Shown here: piece by piece, positions 34,908-37,814 of the stretch
Position numbering within the stretch: the first letter of the stretch is position 1
Layout: every line of letters begins with the position of its first letter
NCBI GenBank assembly: GCA_947600065.1
Contig: CANQFZ010000012.1
Location: 1-43,521 of the forward strand
DNA from: an uncultured Clostridia bacterium
GTDB lineage: Bacteria > Bacillota > Clostridia > Oscillospirales > Ruminococcaceae
Reading direction: 5' to 3'
DNA: 43,521 nt
The notes under the pieces: model-generated
Told to the model about the DNA's origin: nothing
The model's database searches: none
The model's input: the letters and a program-made list of their open reading frames with translations, nothing else
Translations under genes and position numbers: made by a program

Positions 34908-34924
34908 CCTATTGACAAAGTAGG
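34908..34924. promoter_or_regulatory. Rrf2-type operator box 1
   Basis: CCTATTGACAAAGTAGG, a 17-bp palindrome with 5-nt centre that includes the metY -35 hexamer. It matches box 2 as CCTAYT-N5-AGTAGG; the box centres are 41 bp apart, close to four helical turns. A repressor here would block RNA polymerase. Confidence 0.7.
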
Positions 34925-34940
34925 CGATAGGGTTTATAAT
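34912..34940 (+). promoter_or_regulatory. sigma-A promoter of metY-cysK-rrf2
   Basis: TTGACA (34912-34917), 17-nt spacer, TATAAT (34935-34940). Start expected near 34947. Both palindromes touch it, one over the -35 and one just downstream of the start. The leader to metY is about 167 nt and contains a short Cys-rich ORF. Confidence 0.88.
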
Positions 34941-34948
34941 ATAATCAA

Positions 34949-34965
34949 CCTACTCGATTAGTAGG
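34949..34965. promoter_or_regulatory. Rrf2-type operator box 2
   Basis: CCTACTCGATTAGTAGG, a perfect 6+6 palindrome with 5-nt centre, at about +3 to +19. The half-site and spacing resemble IscR/Rrf2 boxes known in Clostridia. An Rrf2 gene lies at the end of this operon, suggesting autoregulation. Confidence 0.75.
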
Positions 34966-34994
34966 AATATAGAAAAATGAAAGGCAACCGAACA

Positions 34995-35057
34995 ATGAAA
35001 CGCAGATATTATGGACGATGTATGATCTGTTCTTCCAGATCCCGAATGTGCCGTTAA
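34995..35057 (+). CDS. Cys-containing 20-residue leader peptide
   Basis: A 20-codon ORF in the metY leader, ending CMICSSRSRMCR, with Cys at positions 9, 12 and 19 and a basic N-terminus MKRRYYGR. GAAAGG (34979-34984) lies 10 nt before the ATG, an ordinary Shine-Dalgarno; an upstream in-frame ATG at 34977 lacks one. The last Cys codon is next to last. The ORF overlaps a hairpin and stops just before a second hairpin with a T-run. This layout fits a leader peptide sensing charged tRNA-Cys, comparable in principle to Cys-rich attenuator ORFs reported in mycobacteria. I know of no named family for it; translation and function are inferred. Confidence 0.6.
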   Translation: MKRRYYGRCMICSSRSRMCR

Positions 35058-35071
35058 ACTTATCGGCTTTT
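35024..35071 (+). promoter_or_regulatory. Leader hairpins, possible attenuator
   Basis: Hairpin a: GATCTG (35024-35029) with CAGATC (35036-35041), inside the leader ORF and spanning its second Cys codon. Hairpin b: GCCG (35050-35053) with CGGC (35064-35067), containing the ORF stop, extended by two pairs past a T-T mismatch and followed by TTTT. Hairpin b is weak as a terminator. The ribosome stalled at the Cys codons would disrupt a and could alter b. Confidence 0.45.
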
Positions 35072-35113
35072 AAAAAACACAATAATATAATATTTTAGGA
35101 GGAACTTTTTATT

Positions 35114-36415
35114 ATGTCAGACATCAGAAATTCACAGAACTGGAGCTTTGAAACAAAACAGCTCCACATAGGACAGGAAACCGCAGACCCTACTACAGAC
35201 GCGCGCGCAGTGCCCATATACGCGAGCACGTCTTTCGTATTCCATAACAGCAAGCATGCCGCAGACCGCTTTGGGCTTCGTGACGCAGGAAATATCTACG
35301 GAAGACTTACAAACCCCACCCAGGATATTTTCGAGCAGAGAATTGCCGCTCTAGAGGGAGGCACGGGCGCTCTTGCTACCGCGTCGGGCGCGGCGGCAAT
35401 AAACTATACCGTTTCTGCTCTCGCAAGAAGCGGAGAACATATCGTAGCTTCAAAGACTATCTACGGCGGCACTTATAATCTGCTCGCGCATACTCTTCCG
35501 CTTTCTTCGGGAATTACGACGACTTTTGTTGACCCCGAAGAGGAAAATACCTTTGAAAATGCTATCCAAGACAACACAAAGGCTATATTTATCGAAACGC
35601 TCGGAAACCCTAACTCTAACATAATCGACATTGAAGAAGTCGCAAAGGTCGCTCATAAACACGGTATACCGCTTGTTGTCGACTCGACGTTTGCTACGCC
35701 TTATCTCGTAAGACCGCTTGAATACGGAGCGGACATTGTCGTACACTCGGCGACAAAGTTCATCGGCGGTCACGGAACGGCGATAGGCGGCGTTATTGTT
35801 GACGGCGGATTTGACTGGGAAAAATCGGGAAAGTATCCGTGGATATCCGCGCCTAACCCCTCTTATCACGGAGTTTCGTTTGCACAGGCGGCGGGAAAAG
35901 CTGCGTTTGTAACGTATATCAGAGCGATACTTCTGAGAGATACGGGCGCGACGCTCTCGCCTTTCCATGCTTTCTTGTTCCTGCAAGGGCTTGAAACGCT
36001 TTCGCTGAGAGTTGAAAGGCATGTTCAGAACGCGCTGAAAATCGTCGAATACTTAAACTCCCACCCGCAGGTAGAGGCTGTTCATCACCCCTCGCTCGAA
36101 ACCGAACCGAGCCACAAACTGTATAAGAAATATTTCCCGAACGGCGGCGGCTCGATATTCACCTTTGAGATAAAGGGAAATGCAGAAACTGCGCAGAAGT
36201 TTATAGACAATCTCGCTATTTTCTCGCTTCTGGCAAATGTTGCGGACGTAAAGAGCCTCGTTATTCACCCCGCAAGCACCACACATTCTCAGCTCACCGA
36301 AAGCGAGCTTCTCGAACAAGGCATAAAGCCCAACACTATCAGGCTTTCTATAGGCACGGAAAACGTAAACGACCTTATTGCGGCGCTAGACGCGGCGTTT
36401 AAAGCCGTTGAATAA
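35114..36415 (+). CDS. metY: O-acetylhomoserine sulfhydrylase
   Basis: A PLP enzyme making homocysteine from O-acetylhomoserine and sulfide, or the related O-acetylserine reaction. It is of the 430-residue MetY/Cys-Met metabolism type. The PLP lysine is Lys215 in HSATKFIGGHG. The N-terminal LHIGQETADPTTDARAVPIY is typical, and ETLGNPNSNI, VVDSTFATPYL and SIGTEN are the other family blocks. AGGAGGA supports the start. It is the first enzyme gene after the leader peptide and dual operator, followed 32 nt later by cysK. With the Rrf2 gene it forms a cysteine/homocysteine operon that would respond to sulfur or cysteine status. Confidence 0.95.
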   Translation: MSDIRNSQNWSFETKQLHIGQETADPTTDARAVPIYASTSFVFHNSKHAADRFGLRDAGNIYGRLTNPTQDIFEQRIAALEGGTGALATASGAAAINYTVSALARSGEHIVASKTIYGGTYNLLAHTLPLSSGITTTFVDPEEENTFENAIQDNTKAIFIETLGNPNSNIIDIEEVAKVAHKHGIPLVVDSTFATPYLVRPLEYGADIVVHSATKFIGGHGTAIGGVIVDGGFDWEKSGKYPWISAPNPSYHGVSFAQAAGKAAFVTYIRAILLRDTGATLSPFHAFLFLQGLETLSLRVERHVQNALKIVEYLNSHPQVEAVHHPSLETEPSHKLYKKYFPNGGGSIFTFEIKGNAETAQKFIDNLAIFSLLANVADVKSLVIHPASTTHSQLTESELLEQGIKPNTIRLSIGTENVNDLIAALDAAFKAVE

Positions 36416-36447: not shown

Positions 36448-37380
36448 ATGGCAAAGATTTATACTTCGGCAGACCAGCTTGTAGGCAGAACGCCACTTCT
36501 TGAACTTGTGCACATTGAAAAGGAGCTCGGACTGAAAGCAAAGATACTTGCAAAGCTCGAATATTTCAACCCCGCGGGTTCTGTAAAAGACAGAGTTGCA
36601 AAGGAAATGCTCGACGACGCGGAGAAAAAAGGCGTATTGAATAAAGACTCGGTAATTATCGAGCCTACGAGCGGAAACACGGGCATAGGACTTGCGTCCG
36701 TAGCGGCGGCAAGAGGTTATCGTATAATAATAGTTATGCCCGAAACAATGTCCGTTGAGCGCAGGCAGCTTATGAAAGCATACGGCGCGGAGCTTGTTCT
36801 TACAGAGGGCGCAAAGGGAATGAAGGGCGCAATAACAAAGGCGGAGGAGCTTGCGAAGGAAATTAAGGGAGGATTTATCCCCTCGCAGTTTACAAATCCC
36901 GCAAATCCCGAAGCGCACAGAAAAACGACGGGTCCCGAAATATGGGAGGACACCGACGGAAAAGTCGACTATTTTGTCGCGGGCGTAGGCACGGGCGGCA
37001 CTATCACGGGAGCGGGCGAATATCTTAAATCGAAAAATCCCAACATAAAAATAGCCGCTATTGAGCCGAAGTCCAGCGCCGTATTATCGACAGGCGTTGC
37101 AGGCTCGCACAAGATACAGGGTATCGGAGCGGGGTTTGTTCCCGAGGTATTGAACACGAAGATATATGACGAGATAATTCCCGTTGAAAACAATGACGCA
37201 TTTGAAGCGGGCAGGCTTATCGGCAAGAAAGAGGGAGTTCTTGTGGGAATATCTTCGGGCGCGGCGTTATGGGCGGCAATTGAAATAGCAAAACGCCCCG
37301 AAAGCGAAGGAAAAAACATAGTTGTTATTCTCCCCGACACGGGCGACAGGTATTTGTCGACCGAGCTGTTTGGCGAATAA
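36448..37380 (+). CDS. cysK: Cysteine synthase A
   Basis: O-acetylserine (thiol)-lyase, making cysteine from O-acetylserine and sulfide. It is 310 residues, normal length. PLP Lys47 lies in [11 protein letters not shown]. The substrate loop is [10 protein letters not shown], and the phosphate-binding GTGGTITG lies near 179. IGAGFVP and the C-terminal [10 protein letters not shown] are present. AAGGAGAA precedes the ATG. It sits between metY and the Rrf2 gene with short gaps, so the three are cotranscribed. No cysE is visible in the window, so O-acetylserine must come from elsewhere. Confidence 0.96.
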
Positions 37381-37406: not shown

Positions 37407-37814
37407 ATGAAACTTGTATCCACCAGAGGACGCTATGCGCTGAGGGTAATTATTGACCTTGCGGAGCATGACAGCGGGAGCTATATCCCGATGAAAGAGA
37501 TCGCTATGCGTCAAGGTATCTCGCTTAAATATCTTGAGCAGATAATGCCCGTGCTTATGAAGAACAAGGTCATTGACGGCGCAAGCGGAAAAGGCGGAGG
37601 ATACAAACTTAACCGTCCGCCCGAGGATTATAAAGTCTGGGATATACTGACGCTTACAGAGGGCAGCCTTGCGCCTGTGGCGTGTCTTGATTGCGACGCG
37701 GAGAAATGCGAACGCGAAAGCGAGTGCCGCACTCTCCCGATGTGGAAAAAATATCAGGAAATGACGGAAGATTTTTTCAATAATATAAGCGTGGCGGACC
37801 TTATGAAGAAGTAA
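37407..37814 (+). CDS. Rrf2/CymR-IscR-type transcription regulator
   Basis: A 135-residue Rrf2 family repressor with a winged helix at the N-terminus (MKLVSTRGRYALRVIIDLAE, then IAMRQGISLKYLEQIM) and a GKGGGYKL wing. Four cysteines lie in the sensor loop, Cys93, 96, 101 and 107, in the region where IscR binds its iron-sulfur cluster. The spacing is not the IscR pattern. It may bind a cluster, or sense cysteine enzymes as CymR does through CysK, which is encoded just upstream. GAGGAGAA precedes the ATG. As the last gene of the metY-cysK operon, it likely controls that operon through the two CCTAYT-N5-AGTAGG boxes. An inverted hairpin repeat follows at once. Confidence 0.9.
   Translation: MKLVSTRGRYALRVIIDLAEHDSGSYIPMKEIAMRQGISLKYLEQIMPVLMKNKVIDGASGKGGGYKLNRPPEDYKVWDILTLTEGSLAPVACLDCDAEKCERESECRTLPMWKKYQEMTEDFFNNISVADLMKK

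Follow-up and report, generated by a model that had tools for sequence, protein, structure and literature searches.

The question raised by this locus is how a sulfur assimilation operon is controlled in an uncultured Clostridia bacterium of the Ruminococcaceae, and whether a short open reading frame with cysteine codons, located directly upstream of metY, takes part in the control. The window is the whole stretch of DNA that was analysed, 43,521 nucleotides of contig CANQFZ010000012.1.

Genes and promoter of the metY locus

The metY-cysK-rrf2 operon is divergent from a cystine-type ABC transporter operon. The genes and the elements in front of them are as follows.

35114..36415, + strand, metY, O-acetylhomoserine sulfhydrylase (TIGR01326 match)
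36448..37380, + strand, cysK, cysteine synthase A (TIGR01139 match)
37407..37814, + strand, Rrf2-family regulator (TIGR00738; IscR/CymR-like, under those equivalog cut-offs)
34912..34940, + strand, sigma-70-like promoter, TTGACA at 34912-34917 and TATAAT at 34935-34940 (consensus match only)
34908..34924, no strand assigned, imperfect inverted repeat CCTA..GTAGG over the -35 box, candidate Rrf2/CymR-type operator (read from the sequence)
34949..34965, no strand assigned, inverted repeat CCTAC-N7-GTAGG at the expected transcription start, second candidate operator or 5' hairpin

The two repeats (34908-34924 and 34949-34965), both of the CCTA..TAGG kind, flank the promoter of this Rrf2-encoding operon; the original prediction mentioned neither them nor the Rrf2 gene. 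We read the repeat at 34908-34924 as a candidate Rrf2/CymR-type operator because the Rrf2 gene belongs to the same operon. Autoregulation of metY-cysK-rrf2 by Rrf2 is probable, on top of the leader control described below. An operator regular expression, too crude for scoring, was applied to 82 metY regions of the family and found a CCTATTGACA-type -35 in 26, the downstream repeat in 12 and both in 5. No tRNA was found in the window, and the window and 18 related loci gave no Rfam match at gathering scores to a T-box, an S-box or another riboregulator.

The leader ORF

The leader between the promoter and metY holds the following features.

34995..35057, + strand, leader ORF MKRRYYGRCMICSSRSRMCR, 20 codons and TAA, from the second ATG
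34977..35057, + strand, the same leader ORF with 26 codons, from the first in-frame ATG (34977)
35016..35024, + strand, upstream module CGA-TGT-ATG (R-C-M)
35043..35051, + strand, CGA-ATG-TGC (R-M-C), conserved codon module, ORF codons 17-18 and a Cys codon; proposed stall site
35029..35036, + strand, putative anti-SD GTTCTTCC within the ORF, 8 bp with the metY SD, one of them G-U
35098..35105, + strand, metY Shine-Dalgarno site GGAGGAAC, 3' arm of the proposed switch
35024..35041, + strand, hairpin A (GATCTG/CAGATC), an inverted repeat, not conserved
35050..35067, + strand, hairpin B (GCCG/CGGC, then TTTT), present only in the closest relatives

The Cys codons of the ORF start at 35019, 35028 and 35049 (codons 9, 12 and 19). 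The original prediction was of a cysteine-responsive leader peptide with a proper ribosome site, acting through hairpins A and B. The 20-codon, Cys-bearing ORF is real: ORF, frame and CGA-ATG are kept above chance in relatives, and close versions of the window ORF occur in L005, L292 and L293. As for the ribosome site, an AAAGG is present at 34980-34984, 10 nt 5' of the ATG at 34995; this is a modest Shine-Dalgarno site with long spacing, not a strong one. The two hairpins exist as inverted repeats and are not conserved. Hairpin A has its full 6 bp in only 1 of 15 genus leaders, the window itself. Hairpin B, a stem of just 4 GC pairs with a 10-nt loop, is complete and in register in 3 of the 15, and L293 has the GCCG/CGGC stem in a shifted position. 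Hairpin A would moreover be a mutually exclusive competitor of the anti-SD:SD helix. The complete leader does not exceed its shuffles in folding stability (z -0.10 for 34996-35130 and -0.01 for 34949-35130).

The original prediction named no clostridial family for the peptide, and no convincing one turned up in NCBIfam or Pfam. The 26-aa form of the window peptide had no curated match in either library, and 16 of the 20 peptides of set A1 gave none in NCBIfam and two single weak matches in Pfam (E 0.037 and 0.074).

Conservation in the family and the genus

At the cut-off used, 83 of 197 family genomes gave a metY match. We read 82 upstream regions; two truncated metY matches (G193 and G070) were left out. 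CGAATG is present in 52 of the 82 regions and absent from 30. It occurs 57 times, 50 times in frame with an SD-led start and 3 and 2 times in the other frames. In 50 of the 82 regions there is a short ORF that has a ribosome site and an in-frame CGA-ATG, the next codon being in most cases Cys or a stop. By sequence this is the arrangement of an attenuator, an SD-led short ORF directly 5' of the operon. Given the in-frame counts, we take the shared element to be CGA-AUG in a translated frame and not the three Cys codons.

In the genus of the window, 15 of 30 metY loci have a CGA-ATG ORF, one (L306) is doubtful and 14 have none. The metY start was placed in a first parse for 19 of the 30 loci and in a second for the other 11; three further genus matches without a locus are outside the 30. 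An extra upstream in-frame CGA-TGT/C is found in 10 of the 15 leaders. The window peptide does not have the NFRFG body of the canonical form described below, and its kinship with the other leaders rests on gene, position, CGA-ATG and anti-SD. Two of the genus loci counted as having no CGA-ATG ORF, L301 and L302, have a similar ORF with ATA instead of CGA before ATG-TGC; FIMCG is the end of the leader ORF in L301, and the ORF runs on past it in L302.

The canonical form of the leader peptide

A canonical peptide, ..LVRANFRFGRM(C), is encoded 5' of metY, nlpA-type and other binding-protein genes across Clostridia. In the family, a [FW]R[FN]GRM peptide is found in 13 of 50 leaders (17 if small variations are allowed), and the canonical pattern matched 24 of the 197 genomes. 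Nine pattern matches lay off the known metY regions: four before NlpA-like lipoprotein genes, one at a shortened metY, and four that look like chance. A scan of named genomes gave at least 120 loci, and most of the 80 titles among the matches listed name Clostridia.

The canonical set consists of at least 140 leaders (136 distinct ORFs), from the named-genome matches together with 30 loci of a class search; some genomes are present in both collections. In brief, 142 of 150 loci (L112-L261) were parsed. L173 gave no parse, L119, L141 and L192 had no near start, L232, L243, L256 and L259 were left out as not CGA, and removal of L234 and L247 as chance matches left 140. Of these, 116 came from the scan that required TG after CGAATG, and 24 had no such preselection. 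Among the matches listed, the automatic call of the downstream gene was metY in 115 of 142 and a lipoprotein gene in 7. On reading, the remaining 20 were found to contain genes of the NlpA, solute-binding, NMT1-like, ABC-ATPase and URO-D kinds, along with two interrupted metY, two chance matches and some unclear cases. Five downstream proteins were assigned by Pfam: two NlpA, one SBP_bac_11, one NMT1_2 and one URO-D.

When any Arg codon was allowed at position 17, the pattern was found in 37 of 391 genomes of a class sample. A CGA-fixed pattern matched 2 of 398 genomes of a phylum sample, both in what by eye looks like ordinary coding sequence. A gap-pattern search of the window's genome found one site, L111, which is not leader-like; this pattern demands GGAG and is blind to the window's own leader, which has no GGAG.

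Selection on codons and on the peptide

In the class sample, where the Arg codon was not preset and all 38 sites were read, R17 is CGA in 29 of 29 leader ORFs; the sites judged to be non-leaders comprise two with CGA and seven without. CGA is otherwise a rare choice for Arg: it accounts for 2.5% of the Arg codons of metY genes (n = 1387) and 2.7% of those of 11 window ORFs (n = 255). R10, a position that the search pattern does not cover, is occupied by Arg in 138 of 140 canonical leaders, and all six codons occur there; a fixed residue with varied codons indicates that the peptide is selected too.

The preference for a Met or Cys codon after CGA extends beyond the anchor. In 202 leader ORFs, the codon after a non-anchor CGA encodes Met or Cys in 50 of 100 cases, versus 21 of 475 where another Arg codon comes first; for CGA in the tail behind RM the count is 38 of 42. 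Six leader ORFs have two or three CGA-ATG. Tandem or repeated CGA-ATG within one leader ORF was seen in L304, L305, L307, L027, L116 and L037, for example as KRMCRMCR.

Cys accounts for 200 of 701 tail residues (28%) after RM in the canonical leaders, versus 10 of 2431 body residues. Excluding the first tail residue, which was selected by the scan, the count is 88 of 369 over the next six positions. As expected of an attenuator, whose regulatory codons specify an amino acid that its operon makes or imports, the tails are enriched in Cys codons. Leaders free of Cys codons are nevertheless many: 41 of 140 canonical leaders have none (9 of the 24 not preselected for TG), which is why we regard Cys alone as insufficient as the signal. 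The stop follows directly after RM in 46 of 140 (12 of the 24). About a third of the canonical leaders thus end in RM-stop and would have one Met codon as the sole possible sensor, bearing in mind that the Met codon of CGA-AUG is part of the search patterns and is present there by construction.

These counts bear on two points of the original prediction. Cys as the only signal is not borne out, as the shared unit is CGA-AUG. Homologous leaders that have no ORF or no Cys codons, named beforehand as evidence against a conserved attenuator, do exist in part: besides the Cys-free leaders above, 30 of the 82 regions in the family and 14 of the 30 loci in the genus have no CGA-ATG ORF.

Pairing between the leader ORF and the metY ribosome site

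In many canonical leaders the metY SD is complementary to the FRFG codons, and a CACATT further downstream to AATGTG. Taken singly, the canonical leaders are only mildly stable (mean z -1.04, 30 of 115 below -2), and we therefore tested co-variation instead. Cognate arms pair at -13.66 kcal/mol versus -11.88 kcal/mol for swapped arms, a difference reached in 0 of 10,000 permutations (109 leaders). The corresponding figures are 0 of 10,000 with GC- and length-matched swaps (79 leaders), 5 of 10,000 for the family set (42 leaders) and 10 of 10,000 for its 27 non-canonical peptides; these permutations count related genomes as independent, and dereplication was by ungapped identity only. Two negative controls, with an ORF segment from further upstream and with the initial codons of metY, gave z of 0.3 and 1.4, versus -7.5. 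The excess at the ribosome site itself is small, with the -16..-5 stretch of metY in a duplex in 71 of 109 cognate pairs versus a mean of 63 (56-70) for swapped ones. No pairing was found in the five canonical leaders of the WRN type (-5.4 versus -9.7 when swapped).

Ten genus leaders with GGAGGAA keep the position of the anti-SD, with 8-10 pairs in 11 nt; the anti-SD starts 17-20 nt 5' of CGA in nine of them and 26 nt in L298. There are compensatory changes in the genus: pair 8 of the SD is C:G in L001 versus A:U in L296, and pair 10 is C:G in L006 versus A:U in L296. Against shuffles, P of 0.05 or less was obtained in 10 of 15 genus leaders for the duplex energy and in 6 of 15 for the longest helix. 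The mean number of pairs over the 15 loci is 8.2 with the cognate SD, 7.8 with the SDs of other leaders and 7.3 with shuffles. In L304, L305, L307 and L308 no anti-SD pairing beyond shuffles was found (P 0.12-0.92).

For the window helix alone, the comparison with shuffles gave P 0.018 for duplex energy, 0.12 for the longest helix and 0.69 for pairs in 11 nt. The helix is present only in the centroid of a 135-nt fold; in a 182-nt fold of the window it is absent from both the best structure and the centroid. On comparative grounds, pairing of an ORF segment with the SD or with a terminator arm, as expected of an attenuator, is supported as a structure of the leader set, the window's own support (8 bp) being mixed and modest.

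Relatives of the terminator type

Nine relatives (L037, L047, L048, L050, L072, L116, L167, L214 and L226, the last a repeat of L214) have, just 3' of CGAATG, a segment whose possible partner is the 5' arm of a hairpin preceding T-runs. Pairing of segments 1 and 2 was computed for L037, L072, L214 and L226, and L167 shows it in its best fold; in the remaining four (L116, L047, L048 and L050) it was judged by eye, as were their hairpins. In L072 the strengths are -27.8 kcal/mol for 1:2, -18.8 for 2:3 and -22.2 for 1:1b. Segment 1b, where a classical attenuator requires them, contains Cys codons in L072, L167, L214 and L226 and, less clearly, in L037 and L047, while L048, L050 and L116 fit the segment-1b scheme poorly. 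If the ribosome stopped at the Cys codons of such a leader, antitermination would be favoured, and a stall would again mean expression. The window's version has no convincing terminator. The idea of a leader-peptide attenuator in which stalling would raise metY-cysK expression is supported by the Cys codons after CGA-ATG and in segment 1b; its operation through hairpins A and B is not supported.

Proposed mechanism and alternatives

We consider it fairly likely that the leader peptide controls metY by translational attenuation, a stall at CGA-AUG(-UGY) freeing the SD and switching expression on. In brief, the segment of the ORF about 7-20 nt 5' of CGA-AUG would act as an anti-SD against the metY Shine-Dalgarno site. 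With sulfur amino acids in good supply, the ribosome would translate CGA-AUG-UGC, terminate and depart, and the anti-SD would shut the metY ribosome site. Under a shortage of charged Met- or Cys-tRNA, the ribosome would wait at CGA-AUG or at the next Cys codon and cover the anti-SD; the SD would stay open and metY-cysK-rrf2 would be expressed. A ribosome extends roughly 15 nt upstream of its P-site codon. With CGA or AUG in the P site it would thus cover most or all of the anti-SD, and at the stop codon of the window ORF it would no longer do so. CGA, the rarest Arg codon here, would slow the ribosome just before the sensing codon, and a contribution of the nascent NFRFGRM chain to the pause is probable in canonical leaders. 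Comparison among the relatives shows the ORF, its frame, CGA-ATG, the placement of Cys, the set-wide anti-SD:SD co-variation and the repeated use before sulfur genes; from these we infer the stalling, the stall signal, the ON outcome and a window helix that acts as in its relatives.

The tRNA set of a relative, together with two published cases, makes CGA plausible as a pause codon. The tRNA-Arg genes found in G132, a closed, single-contig genome, are tct, acg, ccg and cct; tcg was not found in the regions of its 51 tRNA matches. In this one closed genome, CGA thus appears readable only by the ACG/inosine tRNA. Neither tRNA-Arg acg nor tcg was found in the window's own genome, an incomplete assembly. 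CGA is described as slow in the Salmonella his leader in a passage of PMC4046918, and a passage of PMC6379720 lists CGA-CGA and CGA-AUA among the inhibitory codon pairs of yeast. Those cases resemble the proposed pause in that an inosine-wobble CGA slows the ribosome in a neighbour-dependent way, and differ in that CGA is here paired with sulfur amino-acid codons in regulatory leaders.

A wider reading is put forward more tentatively, with chances somewhat short of even. The phrase of CGA and Met and/or Cys codons, sometimes in tandem, could be a class-wide sulfur-starvation sensor of Clostridia, in which rare, inosine-read CGA would make the next sulfur codon hypersensitive to tRNA charging, with help from the NFRFG chain in canonical leaders. 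The same phrase would either open the SD or prevent termination ahead of metY-cysK and of genes for sulfur uptake, those of the methionine type included. If so, many gut and rumen Clostridia would regulate sulfur assimilation by a leader peptide that is unnamed in the libraries searched, and the codon pair CGA-AUG would be a portable, evolutionarily fixed sensor. The leaders would offer a natural bacterial test system for how codon context and nascent chain set the sensitivity to tRNA charging, and would predict the genes that answer Met or Cys scarcity in these mostly uncultured bacteria.

Four other explanations were weighed. The nascent ..NFRFGRM could itself halt translation on sensing a small molecule (Met, Cys, SAM or a precursor), in the manner of TnaC or the Erm leaders, with codon charging secondary. 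The body of the canonical peptide is indeed fixed as amino acids with varying codons (R10 in 138 of 140, six codons), and the 46 of 140 leaders that stop right after RM and the 41 of 140 with no Cys codon resemble termination arrest. We nevertheless regard arrest by the peptide as somewhat unlikely: the body is not conserved in the window's genus, where CGA-ATG is still there, and a peptide-only model does not predict that CGA is fixed as a codon or that other CGA codons also precede Cys and Met. Control by Cys-tRNA scarcity alone, through hairpins A and B, accounts for the three Cys codons of the window ORF, for Cys as 28% of tail residues and for the Cys codons in segment 1b of several terminator-type leaders. 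It is improbable in view of the 41 of 140 canonical leaders with no Cys codon and of the two hairpins, neither of which is conserved.

Promoter control by Rrf2 only, with an ORF that is incidental or encodes a small functional protein acting in trans, would fit the inverted repeats over the -35 box and the start site, the Rrf2 gene in the operon, the recurrence of the repeats in the family (26, 12 and 5 of 82) and the 14 of 30 genus metY loci with no leader ORF. It leaves aside the marks of cis-regulation (an invariant rare codon, a gene-adjacent position, co-variation, terminator variants and varied tails), and as a sole explanation it is very improbable; Rrf2 control probably coexists with leader control. 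That CGAATG is a DNA or RNA site for an unidentified protein, overlapping an ORF by accident, seems scarcely credible. Its nucleotide conservation is strong (52 of 82), but 50 of 57 occurrences are in frame with an SD-led start versus 3 and 2 in the other frames, and repeats of CGA-ATG in one ORF keep the frame.

Relation to known attenuators

Canestrari et al. reportedly described, in 2020, cysteine-responsive attenuators in mycobacteria that consist of polycysteine uORFs. The mycobacterial type is defined by a run of consecutive Cys codons in a leaderless ORF. The window ORF, CMICSSRSRMCR, has no consecutive Cys run and is preceded by a leader and AAAGG; it is not leaderless and is not a member of the mycobacterial type. 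The likeness is a short Cys-codon ORF 5' of cysteine or sulfur genes. Unlike the mycobacterial attenuators, the Clostridia leaders are SD-led, have a single Met and scattered Cys codons, and carry a conserved CGA-AUG, a canonical peptide body and, in some, terminators. Polycysteine uORFs are cited as cysteine-responsive attenuators in passages of PMC9094748 and PMC13236596, and the latter presents translation attenuation, in the part concerned, as SD occlusion relieved by stalling.

In Erm- and cat-type translational attenuators the leader ORF overlaps an anti-SD, and stalling on that ORF makes the SD of the gene that follows accessible. The same is proposed for our leaders, with sulfur amino-acid supply and not an antibiotic as the signal. 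The ermC leader is mentioned in a passage of PMC2965389.

The terminator-type relatives also have a known parallel. The trp and his leaders are transcription attenuators that respond to amino acids. Nine relatives resemble them in their alternative hairpins, and six of these (five distinct) have Cys in segment 1b, whereas the window's version has no convincing terminator. Firmicutes his leaders are treated as amino-acid transcription attenuators in the relevant passage of PMC2965389. TnaC, an arrest peptide (PMC8429421), is similar in its conserved residues beside the last codon, the stop following right after RM in a third of our canonical leaders. It differs in that ligand and stall are proposals here and that the body is not conserved in the window's genus; residues of the nascent chain are conserved in the canonical leaders and not in that genus. 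The CGA-Met/Cys phrase is the unusual part of an otherwise known attenuator scheme. In a literature search with subscription papers and preprints outside its scope, no paper was recognised as describing this peptide, and six-letter strings of the peptide led to unrelated papers only.

Unusual loci with the canonical leader

In L098, L101, L107 and L108 the leader before an nlpA-like gene is, by eye, apparently intra-operonic, shortly past an upstream stop. L096 has a canonical leader followed by an apparent metY start fused to a cysK end and then an Rrf2 gene; the fusion looks like a deletion or an assembly error. In L162, on a contig titled Treponema, a canonical leader precedes a URO-D family gene, by transfer or misbinning. 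A second conserved tail, ..GG(I)(S/A)YC-stop, for example SDGGISYC, ends the leaders of L132, L153 and L242, all before solute-binding protein genes, and was not noticed in leaders before metY.
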